Shown piece by piece: positions 58,406 to 64,000 of a stretch of 64,000 bases of DNA. Both the position numbers and the translations under genes were made by a program. Under the pieces are notes generated by a model, which was given only the letters and a program-made list of their open reading frames with translations, did not search any database and had not been told where the DNA came from. Within the stretch, counting starts at the first letter, position 1; each line of letters starts with the position of its first letter. Source of the DNA: Ignavibacteria bacterium (GTDB lineage: Bacteria > Bacteroidota > Ignavibacteria > Kapaibacteriales > Kapaibacteriaceae); NCBI GenBank assembly GCA_016191145.1, contig JACPPD010000011.1, positions 1-64,000 on the forward strand. The letters are read 5' to 3'.

Positions 58406-60448
58406 TTGAAGCAAAATGTTTTATGGCGGTGGGGTATCATCATCGCACCCATACTGGCCGCCGCGTATCTGATGTGGCCAACGTATCGGTATTATCAAAT
58501 GGATGAAGAGCGTCAGGCACTGTCTTCCGATTCCGTGCAACTGGCGCAATGGGATGAATTACATGGTGAGGATTTTCAAAAAGTCAGACAGAACCGCCTC
58601 AAGCTGGGTCTCGATTTGAGAGGGGGCATGTACGTCACACTCGAAGTCGACGTATTGAAGCTGATTGAAGAAGCTGCCGATGAAACGAGTGTCGATGGCG
58701 AGTTTACTTCGATCATTGAAAAGACGAGGAAGGAAACGGACAACACAGACCTCGATGTTCTCGATACATTTCTCGGATTATTCAAGGCCAGCGGAAAGAG
58801 TCTGCTTCAGTACTTCACGATATCTAGTCAGTTGGATCCAACCGAAGAAGCTGTAGAGGAACGTCTGCGTCGCGATGCCGATGCCGCCGTCGATCAGGCC
58901 TTGCAGGTTATCAAGCAGCGGATCAATCAATATGAATTATCGGAAACGGAAATTCAGAAGGTTGGATCGAGGCGGATTCAAATCGAATTGCCGGACGTTA
59001 AGGACGAGCAGGAGATTCGGTCGCTCTTGCAGACAACAGCACGTTTAGAGTTCAAGCGTGTCCTCATGAATCGTGAAACTATCCGAACATTCTATGCCAT
59101 CGACCGTGTGTTGAAGGGGGTATCGCCCGATTCAACAGATGTTGTTTCCGATAGCGCAATCGCCCGGGCCGATACTGCATCAAAGGACACTGCAGTCGCC
59201 GATACAAGTGGTTCCGACACAGCGAAATCAGACACCACAAATCCCTATACAAACCTTCCGAAGGAAGAACAGGAACGTGCAATCAAGCGCGACTATCCGT
59301 TTACCCACATGATAGCCGGATACTTTGCTGCCAACGAAAAGGCAACAATGCAGCCGTTTGATTTTGTACTAAAGAAACCCGAAGATTTTCCGGAAACGGG
59401 CATCTACAGATTTATTATCGGTGAGAAATTTCTCTCTCAATTACTCCGTCTGCTTAACAGGCCCGAAGTACAAAAGGTTATCCCTGTAGACTTGCAGATT
59501 CTCATCGGCGCCAACGCAGAGGGTCGAACGGCATCGGCTGAAGGTACAGGTGTTTATGATGTTTATACCGTTGCACGAGAGGCCGATCTAACTGGTGATG
59601 TAATCACGGAGGCATTTCCAACGTACGACCCGAGTTCCGGGCATCCAGTAGTAAGCATGAGCATGAATCCGGAAGGTGCAGAGAGATGGGCGCAGATCAC
59701 CGGTGCGAATGTTGGAAAGCGTATAGCCATTGTTCTCGACGGGAGAGTATACTCTGCGCCGAACGTCATTAATAAAATTCCCAATGGCAGCTCGCAAATC
59801 ACTGGCATGGGCGGTGTGCAGGAAGCAAATCTTCTGGCAGTTGTGCTGAAGGCAGGGGCATTAAAGGCGCCTGTGAAAATTATTGAAGAACGTGTTGTGG
59901 GGCCATCGCTGGGAGAAGATTCAATTAGGCGCGGCATCATGTCGTCGATCCTATCGTTTGCTCTAGTTGTACTTTTTATGCTTGTTTACTATATGCTTGG
60001 CGGTGGACTGGCCGACGTTGCATTGCTGATGAACGTCCTGCTAGTAGTAGCAACACTCGTTGGTTTACAGGGAACACTAACGCTGCCCGGTATTGCCGGT
60101 ATCATCCTGGCCACTGCTATGGCTGTAGATGCTAACATTCTCATCTTCGAGCGGATGAGGGAAGAGCTCGCAGCGGGCCGAACATTGCGTACGGCCTTGG
60201 AGCAAGGGTATGCCAAAGCGTGGAGTGCTATTCTCGACTCGAACCTGACGAACATGCTTTCCGGCGTCGTGCTCATTTTCCTCGGAAGCGGACCCGTAAA
60301 AGGATTTGCGTGGACATTAATAATTGGTGTGTTAATGACCTTGTTTACCGCCGTCGTCGTCACTCGTTCAATGTTTGAACTCTACCTGAGCACAGGCGCA
60401 ACAACGATTAATCTTGGACAGAAAAAAACAGCGCAAGCTGTTGTGTAA
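58406..60448 (+). CDS. secD: protein translocase subunit SecD
   Basis: Part of SecDF, which uses the proton gradient to drive late stages of Sec export. 680 aa; TTG start preceded by AGGAGG at about 9 nt. N-terminal helix, LKLGLDLRGGMYVTLEVD, the periplasmic P1 domain, and six membrane helices with VGPSLGEDSIRRGIMSS and TAMAVDANILIFERMREEL. Residues about 238-281 hold a low-complexity Asp/Ser/Thr/Ala insert (for example DTASKDTAVADTSGSDTAKS), not usual in SecD. secF follows after 9 nt. Confidence 0.96.
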   Translation: MKQNVLWRWGIIIAPILAAAYLMWPTYRYYQMDEERQALSSDSVQLAQWDELHGEDFQKVRQNRLKLGLDLRGGMYVTLEVDVLKLIEEAADETSVDGEFTSIIEKTRKETDNTDLDVLDTFLGLFKASGKSLLQYFTISSQLDPTEEAVEERLRRDADAAVDQALQVIKQRINQYELSETEIQKVGSRRIQIELPDVKDEQEIRSLLQTTARLEFKRVLMNRETIRTFYAIDRVLKGVSPDSTDVVSDSAIARADTASKDTAVADTSGSDTAKSDTTNPYTNLPKEEQERAIKRDYPFTHMIAGYFAANEKATMQPFDFVLKKPEDFPETGIYRFIIGEKFLSQLLRLLNRPEVQKVIPVDLQILIGANAEGRTASAEGTGVYDVYTVAREADLTGDVITEAFPTYDPSSGHPVVSMSMNPEGAERWAQITGANVGKRIAIVLDGRVYSAPNVINKIPNGSSQITGMGGVQEANLLAVVLKAGALKAPVKIIEERVVGPSLGEDSIRRGIMSSILSFALVVLFMLVYYMLGGGLADVALLMNVLLVVATLVGLQGTLTLPGIAGIILATAMAVDANILIFERMREELAAGRTLRTALEQGYAKAWSAILDSNLTNMLSGVVLIFLGSGPVKGFAWTLIIGVLMTLFTAVVVTRSMFELYLSTGATTINLGQKKTAQAVV

Positions 60449-60457
60449 GGAACAGAT

Positions 60458-61405
60458 ATGGACCTCATTAAAAAGACAAACATCGACTTCATCAGTAAGC
60501 GAAATGTATTCTTTATAACATCGTTTGTTGTTAACGTCCTTGGCCTCCTGCTAATCGTTTTCACAGGAGTCGACCTGGGCATTGATTTCACGGGCGGGAC
60601 ACAGGTTTCGGTACGCTTTCAGAAGAACACCGCAACTACTGAAGAAATTCGATCTACGCTGTCAACTATTGGTTACAGTGGTGCGCAGCTCAAGAGCTTT
60701 GGTAATCCAGGCGAGTATTTAATCAGAGTGGCAGCATCGGGGAATGCCTCAAAAGTTTCTGCCGATATTGTTTCTAAACTGCAGAGTACATATTCAAACG
60801 ATACAATTGAGCTGCTGGGTGCCGACAATGTGGAAAAGAAGATCTCCGGTGAGCTTGCCATCGATTCGTTGATTGCCATGGTTGTTGCATTCGTTGTGAT
60901 GTTGATATACATCGCCTTCCGATTTGAATTTGTCTACGGTCTGGGTTCCATTGTGGCGTTGCTTCACGATGTGCTTATGGCCTTCGTTATCTCGGTTCTG
61001 TTCAATAAAACAGGTTTGTTAAACCTAGAGCTTAGCATAAACTCAATAGCTGCCTACCTAACAATCCTTGGATACTCGATTAACGACAAAGTTGTTGTCT
61101 TCGACAGAATACGCGAGAACCGGGAGAAGCACAAAGGCATGGCATTGGCCGACCTCATCAATGTTTCGTTAAACGAAACGCTTTCCAGAACGCTAATCAC
61201 CGGTGTTGCAGTTCTTGGGGCACTTCTCATCCTCGTATTCATGGGGGGAGAAGTATTGGAGGGATTCGCCTTTACAATGTTTGTCGGCATCGTTATAGGC
61301 ACATATTCTTCGATCTATATTGCTTCCTCGTTTGTGCTGTGGTACACGGACAGAATTAGGCACAAGCGTGTTGGAACTGTGCACGCAGCTCAGGCCAAGG
61401 GGTAA
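60458..61405 (+). CDS. secF: protein translocase subunit SecF
   Basis: 315 aa. LGIDFTGGTQVSVRF, the SecF periplasmic domain, FEFVYGLGSIVALLHDVLMAF, GYSINDKVVVFDRIRENR and LSRTLITGVAVLGALLILVFMGG match SecF throughout; six membrane helices. Directly follows secD, forming the complex partner. A STAS-domain gene follows after 3 nt. Confidence 0.96.
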   Translation: MDLIKKTNIDFISKRNVFFITSFVVNVLGLLLIVFTGVDLGIDFTGGTQVSVRFQKNTATTEEIRSTLSTIGYSGAQLKSFGNPGEYLIRVAASGNASKVSADIVSKLQSTYSNDTIELLGADNVEKKISGELAIDSLIAMVVAFVVMLIYIAFRFEFVYGLGSIVALLHDVLMAFVISVLFNKTGLLNLELSINSIAAYLTILGYSINDKVVVFDRIRENREKHKGMALADLINVSLNETLSRTLITGVAVLGALLILVFMGGEVLEGFAFTMFVGIVIGTYSSIYIASSFVLWYTDRIRHKRVGTVHAAQAKG

Positions 61406-61408
61406 CCC

Positions 61409-63015
<1,607 letters not shown>

Positions 63016-63027
63016 TGGCACTTGCCA

Positions 63028-63293
63028 GGTTCAGGGTTCAGGGTTCCAAGTTCAGGGTTCAGGGTTCCAAGTTCAGGGTTCCAGGTTCAAAGTTCATGGT
63101 GCCAGGTTCAGGGTTCCAGGTTCAAGGTTCAGGGTTCAAAGTTCAAGGTTCAGGGTTCCAGGTTCAAGGTTCATGGTTCCAGGTTCAGGGTTCCAGGTTC
63201 AAAGTTCAGGGTTCCAGGTTCAAGGTTCAGGGTTCCAAGTTCAGGGTTCAGGGTTCCAAGTTCAAGGTTCCAGGTTCAGGGTTCAGGGTTCCA
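63028..63293 (+). repeat. 7-bp minisatellite array (RGTTCMN units), about 38 copies
   Basis: Exactly 266 bp can be cut into 38 uninterrupted heptamers, nearly all GGTTCAG, GGTTCCA, GGTTCAA, AGTTCAG or AGTTCAA, with GGTGCCA and GGTTCAT/AGTTCAT variants. No insertion breaks the 7-bp register. Since 7 is not a multiple of 3, every frame reads the same heptapeptide-type repeat (FRVQGSG), so ORFs here are not evidence of a gene. Flanked by GTGGCACTTGCCAG on the left and AGTGCCACGTGCCAC on the right. Confidence 0.95.
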
Positions 63294-63622
63294 AGGGAGT
63301 GCCACGTGCCACAGTACAGCCGTGTGGTCCGCAATGCGGGGATCGGGGGAATGCAAACAGCCTCCAAATGATAAATGAAATGACATGCCAGGACCGTGCA
63401 CTCAAGCATGGAATACCACGAACCTGGATCGTTGAACCGTAGACACACGGCTCATGATAACGGACTAATGCTGCCATAACAGGAAGATCGCGGATAAACA
63501 TCTATGGCGCAACTCAACAAATACTCGACAGCAATTTGAAGCCCTCGATACTCGTGATACTGCCGACAGCCATGTTATAGGGGTTTAGAAGAGTACAAAT
63601 AAATATATTTAGTATTAAATCC
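63294..63622. other. non-coding spacer between inverted repeat arrays
   Basis: About 330 nt with no convincing ORF, RNA gene or transposase remnant. The left edge has AGTGCCACGTGCCAC; the interior contains isolated AACCTGG and TTGAACC words, similar to the arrays. The right end is A/T-rich (AATAAATATATTTAG). I see no other structure in it. Confidence 0.6.
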
Positions 63623-63777
63623 TTGAACCATGAACCTGGAACCATGAACCATGAACTTGGAACCCTGAACCTTGAACTTGGAACCCTGGAACCCTGAACC
63701 CTGAACTTGGAACCCTGAACCTGGAACCCTGAACTTTGAACTTGGAACTTTGAACCCTGAACCTTGAACTTGGAACT
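63623..63777 (-). repeat. second 7-bp array, inverted relative to the first, about 22 copies
   Basis: Units TTGAACC, CTGAACC, TGGAACC, ATGAACC and versions with final T are the reverse complements of the units at 63028-63293. One 8-bp unit (CTGGAACC, near 63686) shifts the register once. Together the two arrays form a long imperfect inverted repeat with a 329-nt spacer. Confidence 0.94.
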
Positions 63778-63789
63778 TCCTATAAGAAA

Positions 63790-64000
63790 ATGTGTTATGT
63801 TTTGCTACCCGTGTCCCTCCCTCGAACCATAGTTCTCTTCCTTTCCTTTTTGCTTCTGTCGTTGAGTGCCATTGGACAGCGTTGGGAAGAGGTTACACTG
63901 CCTGCCCCTTACAATGCAGGGTATTACCTTGACATTTTCTTTTTACCATCGTCGCCTCAGTATGGATGGGCGTGCGATTACGATTCCGGCTATGTTGTTC
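63790..64000 (+). CDS. secreted protein, N-terminal part (runs off the right edge)
   Basis: An ATG at 63790 opens an ORF without stop to the window end (about 70 codons). A signal peptide is clear (TIVLFLSFLLLSLSAIGQ), followed by RWEEVTLPAPYNAGYYLDIFF and GWACDYDSGYVV, reminiscent of the first blade of BNR/YCF48-like beta-propeller secreted proteins. Start could also be the GTG at 63811. It begins 12 nt after the second 7-bp array. Confidence 0.72.
   Translation, partial: MCYVLLPVSLPRTIVLFLSFLLLSLSAIGQRWEEVTLPAPYNAGYYLDIFFLPSSPQYGWACDYDSGYVV

Follow-up and report, generated by a model that had tools for sequence, protein, structure and literature searches.

The window, that is, the whole stretch of 64,000 nucleotides analysed here (on contig C8 of genome G000), contains near its right end a gene that we take, from its sequence, to be purA, followed by two arrays of 7-bp units in opposite orientation. 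The features, in window coordinates, are the following.

61747..63015, plus strand: the host gene, presumably purA, whose stop codon lies 12 bp before the start of the left array
63016..63026, plus strand: left junction, TGGCACTTGCC, directly after the purA stop codon
63027..63292, plus strand: left arm, 38 heptamers, mostly RGTTCMN, 266 bp in a single register
63297..63620, plus strand: conserved noncoding core, with sequence copies elsewhere in the genome
63621..63776, minus strand: right arm, about 22 reverse-complement heptamers
63772..63799, plus strand: right junction, GGAACTTCCTATAAGAAAATGTGTTATG, common to the near relative G001, which does not have the window element

The preliminary description had read the left array as 38 copies in 266 bp with no register break, and this was confirmed at 63027-63292 in the draft assembly (draft genomes may mis-size arrays); one unit, TGGTGCC at 63097, is degenerate. 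It had also placed a 22-copy reverse-complement array after 329 nt. The array is there, with about 22 units, and is not perfectly in register because of a single 8-bp step near 63685-63690; the spacer measures 328 nt. Tandem Repeats Finder, at its default threshold, reported no tandem arrays in the 64 kb besides these two (7 rows with scores of 135-402). The unit types were few (AGGTTCA 13, GGGTTCC 10, AAGTTCA 7, and GGGTTCA 5) and the top score, 402, corresponded to a higher-order period of 56 bp, both in agreement with the duplication by blocks that had been proposed from the few variable positions of the units. The large stem foreseen for the complementary ends was also predicted by folding: the RNA of 63016-63790 reached -375.7 kcal/mol (z = -15.3 against 20 dinucleotide shuffles). 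Considering that G001 has a GGCACYN-like array at the same site, we infer that TGGCACTTGCC resembles remnants of a sister heptamer family, GTGCCAN.

No transposase, reverse transcriptase, or CRISPR accompanied the arrays, as had been noted. A search of Rfam gave zero matches in 60000-64000 at the gathering threshold and in 62900-63900 at E up to 5, the genome had no RVT_1 and no DDE_Tnp_1 match, and its four Y1_Tnp matches lie on other contigs (C2, C3, and C19), none of them beside the window element. A CRISPR array was ruled out by the contiguous 7-bp units, which have no spacers between them. The location of an intervening sequence (IVS) of 23S rRNA was discarded as well, since the element is not in rRNA but between purA and the downstream gene and had no Rfam match.

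A genome-wide search for such arrays, with their orientation and position relative to gene ends, had been proposed, and the lack of other copies had been named as what would speak against the feature. Using the window left array as query, which would miss arrays too dissimilar to it, we obtained 16 matches in the 2.47-Mb genome, which merged into 13 arrays at 9 loci. Array pairs were present on C2, C3, C7, and C8 (the window locus), and a half element at C7:74707-75222 had the core and the right array without the left one. Further arrays were located on C10, C5, C19, and C15, and on C10, C5, and C19 no partner array was seen. At 7 of the 8 intergenic loci the array began 1-19 bp after a stop codon and GTTC was on the sense strand of the adjacent gene (ORF ends were assigned mechanically); the exception was the array on C19, 91 bp from the stop codon.

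The spacer proved to be part of the element. Its 324-nt core was present four times in the genome, the window copy included; the other copies are the following.

C3:24132-24456: core copy, 92% identity
C7:72726-73077: core copy, 88% identity
C7:74707-75027: core copy (C7b), 73% identity

The copies vary by 5-nt and 28-nt insertions and the window core has no open frame of at least 40 aa wholly inside it, so the core was taken as noncoding. A conserved RNA fold is not claimed for it: RNAalifold on the four copies gave -47.8 kcal/mol, the covariation term being +1.75, and two-sided changes were seen in 3 of 77 pairs. Among 98 relatives the core gave one chance match of 22 bases (G026) and zero in the other 97 genomes, only 7 candidates being scored in genomes with many first-look candidates.

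Occupied and empty states of the same site could be compared at orthologous positions: the 3′ end of purA, pheT, and the plasmid sites described below. The purA site was compared by eye in 6 of 23 family loci. The window element was absent in the five genus members read (G001 to G005), and G006 has another neighbour gene. In G001, with 92% identity over the PurA query, the right junction is shared and preceded by some 100 bp in which GTGCCRN-type heptamers lie on the opposite strand. In G002 to G005 purA is followed by the same next gene, with some 20-170 bp between them and no arrays. At pheT, the array C15:9717-9912 (L060:5218-5413), compared with G001, adds about 54 residues in frame to an ORF of 909 aa. 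It is translated as repeats like GSQFNVQGS within PheT and shows a higher-order unit of about 30 bp; behind it, three reverse-complement units were recognised by eye. The parts of PheT that flank it adjoin without insert in 21 of the 22 other family genomes, being 24 nt apart in G001; G003, whose gene is split between contigs, was not scored as insert-free.

The arrays of the two sister species also differ in their units. G001 had 22 matches of GTGCCAN type on 12 contigs (7 control matches) and one GTTCCAT unit in a mixed array; in the genome of the window the GTGCCAN/GTTC pattern search gave 346 matches against 12 in the control, with GTGCCAN units at several edges of GTTC arrays, and matches occurred in 4 of 23 family genomes. 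Units one base apart at the same site in sister species suggest that a new variant sweeps through the arrays. No S23 gene was detected in G001 despite its arrays, its genome being 80% complete.

The preliminary description had overlooked, besides the repeated core, a sister array pair at C2:31137-32120, so that its overall interpretation stands in part. The arms of this pair are made of GTTC units related to those of the window, and its core is a different one: an open frame of 120 aa on the minus strand that matched PF05635 (23S_rRNA_IVP/S23, four helix bundle protein) with E 1.3e-27, the sole PF05635 match found in the genome. The AlphaFold model of this protein (pLDDT 95.6) matched 2GSC (Xcc0516) with TM 0.86 and E 2e-5. 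The match to Avd of diversity-generating retroelements (DGRs; 4DWL) was weaker (TM 0.77, E 0.11) and failed the E cut-off; the likeness to Avd is one of predicted fold. Avd acts together with a reverse transcriptase, whereas the genome of the window has no RVT_1 match. In published reports, Xcc0516 is described as a homopentamer (PMC4990558) and PF05635 as occurring near DGRs (PMC10053308). A reverse transcriptase as partner, an idea taken from the Avd fold, was rejected, since there was no match in the genome and the correlation between S23 and reverse transcriptase was not significant after genome size.

Of 99 genomes within the order, 45 had PF05635 at E 0.001 (38 over the family cut-off), with a maximum of 17 matches per genome. 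Several of these loci have inverted heptamer arrays of other units at their flanks (CACCAAT, GAATTAA, GGGTATT, GTTACTG, and GGAAGCC). At L064 (G094 C80:32992-36309) the whole unit is tandemly amplified as CACCAAT array-S23-array-S23-array with very similar S23 genes. At L087 (G072 C37) the S23 gene adjoins, by eye, a 5S rRNA-like sequence and the heptamers are on its far side.

To a broader extent, S23 loci were taken from GTDB, using the best 80 of 589, a sample that favours the subfamily of the query. By record title they belong to Clostridia, Planctomycetes, Acidobacteria, Bacteroidota, Cyanobacteria, Proteobacteria, Chloroflexi, and others, also candidate phyla such as Uhrbacteria. A period-7 or period-14 array was present within 600 bp of the S23 ORF in 29 of 155 flanks versus 19 of 1039 distant segments (best 80 of 589 loci; 5 of 160 flanks, shorter than 150 bases, were left out). 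Six of the 80 loci had no flanks long enough for the arm tests, which were carried out on 74. When the left flank was compared with the reverse-complemented right flank, 45 loci scored above the 95th percentile of 843 control pseudo-elements and 18 above the 99th (p = 6e-22); in direct orientation these figures were 14 and 9. The best period was 7 in 34/74 loci versus 37/660 control pairs of the same contigs, these pairs being drawn from GTDB contigs only, and 32 of the 74 had no array of any period from 4 to 13 at threshold.

For the matching of the two arms, 129 loci were sampled before removal of duplicates: 74 of 80 from GTDB, 24 of 30 from the order and the genome of the window (5 not entered, 1 too short), 10 of 15 matches in G091, 10 of 17 in G077, and 11 of 29 plasmid records, chosen among the higher entries of the hit table. 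Without L071 (the same as L254), L066 (the same as L264), L284 (a near copy of L274), and L083 (orthologous to L081), 125 remained (74, 21, 10, 10, and 10, respectively). The best period was 7 in 76 of them, 8 in 7, 9 in 2, 10 in 1, and none in 39. The arms of a same locus matched with a mean of 24.1 against 11.3 when re-paired, the maximum of 5000 permutations being 13.4, and the score of the own arms was in the top 5% of cross-scores in 94/125 loci. For the 74 GTDB loci alone the means were 22.2 and 11.2, with a permutation maximum of 14.1. As predicted RNA duplexes, the own pair was stronger than a random cross pair in 106/125. With the four removed loci kept, period 7 was found in 79/129, the top 5% in 94/129, and the stronger own duplex in 114/129. 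Even within one genome the own arms beat those of other S23 copies (G091, p = 7e-6; G077, p = 8e-5); the ten copies of G091 have several units, for example GAATTCT, AATTACT, TTAATGG, and ATAAGTT, some common to two copies. The heptamer is thus specific to each element, varying even among S23 copies of one genome, and both arms of one element match. In L144 (Muribaculaceae), L150 and L167 (candidate phyla), and L254 (G091), the units are of 8 or 9 bp, still inverted.

A universal heptamer consensus is weak at best. The shared pattern GGnnAGT, read upstream on the S23 sense strand in the 56 of 105 loci with a usable array, had an information of 2.50; the maxima of the two nulls, with 40 draws each, were 2.26 and 2.47, which places the pattern above the column-permuted nulls and barely above the strand-flipped ones. 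As for rRNA, none of the best 80 of 589 GTDB loci was placed in it by a scan whose reach is limited by exact motifs and unassembled rRNA; the only candidate of the scan, L155, was not supported by Rfam.

The cyanobacterial plasmids allowed the sites to be compared in 7 records out of 14, 2, and 31 matching. Two plasmids of Nostoc C057, p057_A and p057_K, are empty at the 3′ end of a TraM-like gene; at this site pC052_D (Nostoc C052) and pNe_5 (N. edaphicum) have, after the stop codon, the arms and S23; and pNsp_c (Nostoc ATCC 53789) has the arms and a core without an open frame over 26 aa. This occupied site without S23 is a parallel to the window element. The nrdB-nrdA site is occupied in N. 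edaphicum and empty in Calothrix NIES-4105. The cas6-cas4 site is occupied in Anabaena 90, in Nostoc UHCC 0302 the two genes are 23 nt apart without S23, and in Dolichospermum UHCC 0315A (98.8% identity) other sequence stands in place of S23. No clean target duplication was seen at the compared plasmid sites, where occupied and empty versions differ by tens of bases or by other repeats. With regard to insertion sequences and MITEs, which have a fixed terminal inverted repeat and a target duplication, the arm sequence was observed to differ between elements.

Among the cyanobacterial plasmid loci, 5 of 11 had no inverted match, or a short one only, within 150 bp. S23 lies between cas6 and cas4 of CRISPR loci on plasmids of Anabaena sp. 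90 (L275) and Pseudanabaena galeata (L277); in L277, one of these five, the flanking heptamers are direct and not inverted. The S23 genes reported earlier in cas loci (PMC3936711) may be such insertions.

The closest known system is the S23-bearing IVS of 23S rRNA. According to PMC4990558, it was called a selfish element whose mobility was proposed in the 1990s; in Coxiella three GACAGAT heptamers and a degenerate fourth precede the S23 ORF, fewer in some strains, and RNase III cuts at the first heptamer. The protein family, the similar size, the inverted ends, and the heptamers beside the ORF are thus common to both (PMC4990558), whereas the IVS is in rRNA and the elements described here are at intergenic or intragenic sites, with long tandem arrays as arms and, in the window copy, no S23 ORF. 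IVP ORFs have also been reported in rRNA of CPR (PMC11270868). The GGGAATC/GGGGATT heptamers of Xanthomonas and Nostoc are likewise tandem and dispersed, with 70 and 75 inverted pairs in two Xanthomonas genomes; the text of that work does not mention S23, nor does it describe a general association of the repeats with mobile elements (PMC4692102). The TAACTGA repeats of Beggiatoaceae, cyanobacteria, and Bacteroidetes resemble our arrays as heptamer arrays of patchy distribution, but S23 is unmentioned in their description (PMC4679880), and the exact TAACTGA tandem was present in 0 of 223 loci here. By their gene-less dispersed copies beside a gene-bearing form, our elements also recall REP/REPIN with RAYT. 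That system is made of a palindromic sequence and a Y1 transposase, whereas here the protein is S23 and heptamers were found at 1 of 20 Y1 loci. Cyanobacterial STRR repeats are also tandem, dispersed heptamers. Membership of the window element in REP/RAYT was rejected because there is no Y1 match alongside.

It is conceivable, though unlikely, that the element is moved in trans by a Y1 (HUH/RAYT-like) transposase, in the manner of REP/REPIN, with S23 as a passenger. Over 99 genomes the numbers of S23 and Y1_Tnp matches correlated with a Spearman coefficient of 0.55 (0.46 after genome size; 0.52 over 41 genera), figures that treat related genomes as independent except at genus level. The correlation was weaker with DDE_Tnp_1 (0.23; 0.04 after size) and with reverse transcriptase (0.21; 0.12 after size), and the genome of the window has Y1 matches only, four of them. 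Against this, mobile genes that occur together need not be causally linked, and related genomes do not count as independent. Moreover, a period-7 array was found at one flank only among 20 Y1 loci (4 with cut or masked flanks), which makes them a negative control for the S23 association, and several Y1 loci carry REP-like hairpins or, in the genome of the window, 12-bp arrays. Three of its four Y1_Tnp (RAYT-like) matches (G000 C3:10753, C2:86776, and C2:94283; L292 to L294) have 12-bp tandem arrays, for example GCCGGGAGAAAC, at their flanks. It is possible that these form a parallel array system tied to another protein.

Plain slippage of minisatellites, by which arrays would grow at neutral sites and the inverted pairs and S23 neighbours would be coincidental, seems to us quite unlikely as the whole explanation. 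It would account for units that vary in blocks and for arrays that are single, and the GTGCCAN units of the near relative at the purA site, one base different, suggest turnover of the units in place. It leaves unexplained the 324-nt core at four sites, the empty and occupied plasmid sites, and the matched arms of the S23 elements, where it is largely refuted by the comparison over 125 loci. Slippage is probably the process that alters copy number within the arms.

We consider it very unlikely that the arrays are a structural RNA selected at gene ends for the benefit of the host, with the hairpin serving purA and other genes as a terminator or to stabilise their 3′ ends. The sense orientation and the short distance (1-19 bp) from the preceding stop codon at 7 of 8 intergenic loci would fit such a role, as would the very stable predicted fold (z -15.3). 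But an insertion also does the least damage just behind a stop codon, none of the five other genus members read has the window element downstream of purA (one has another kind of heptamer array there), and S23 genes at unrelated sites are surrounded by a similar architecture. Termination by the arrays is possible and, if present, would be secondary, since one array sits inside the reading frame of pheT.

The feature in the window is therefore best explained, and in our opinion probably so, as a non-autonomous copy of a widespread selfish element formed by inverted 7-bp arrays around a core. A selfish element had been one of several options in the preliminary description, and this option holds up; for two others, a nucleoid-binding site and a recombination hotspot, there is nothing specific in favour. 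What looks like the autonomous form has an S23/23S_rRNA_IVP gene as core, the C2 copy being one such; the window element, whose core is noncoding, is filed as non-autonomous, like the site in the Nostoc ATCC 53789 plasmid. The elements are dispersed in the genome of the window and present or absent at given sites, and S23 genes are accompanied by matched inverted period-7 arms in many phyla, with heptamers proper to each element. The best reading is that the ends are defined by period and self-complementarity and not by a fixed sequence. Against the reading as an element stand the S23 loci without arrays, the plasmid loci with a short inverted match or none, the unpaired arrays on C10, C5, and C19, the half element on C7, the arrays of G001 without detected S23, the lack of a clean target duplication at the plasmid sites, and the weakness of the unit pattern common to the elements.

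By analogy with the S23-bearing IVS of Coxiella, read-through transcripts of the element would pair along the arms to give a long double-stranded stem, to be cut by RNase III, in such a way that insertion after a stop codon or in rRNA would cost the host little; arrays within 19 bp of stop codons and in sense orientation are what one would expect if an insertion has to be harmless. S23, a putative Avd-like four-helix bundle, may bind the RNA of the arms or stem, or single-stranded DNA, and promote the spread of its own element. It may also act in trans on gene-less copies such as that of the window, as the GTTC units shared with the C2 arms suggest. The arms could be kept alike through slippage or through templated copying within the hairpin.

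More tentatively, and as a proposal less likely to be right than the reading of the window itself, it could be that these elements are a bacteria-wide class of mobile element without known recombinase, whose ends would be recognised by period and self-complementarity and whose sole encoded factor would be the Avd-like S23, acting on hairpin RNA or single-stranded DNA. The IVS of 23S rRNA, many heptamer repeats (STRR, GGGAATC, and TAACTGA), and the S23 genes stranded in cas loci would then all be its manifestations. In the open-access literature we found no paper that connects S23 with inverted heptamer arrays; most subscription papers are outside that scope and a prior description is possible. 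The earlier work on TAACTGA called for a repeat-binding protein and for the study of its gene neighbourhoods (PMC4679880), and S23 is a concrete candidate for the repeat-binding protein sought in earlier heptamer work. On the plasmids named above, a single site is seen empty, occupied with the gene, and occupied without it. The function of S23/IVP proteins and the origin of bacterial heptamer arrays, both long-standing puzzles, thus become one testable question.
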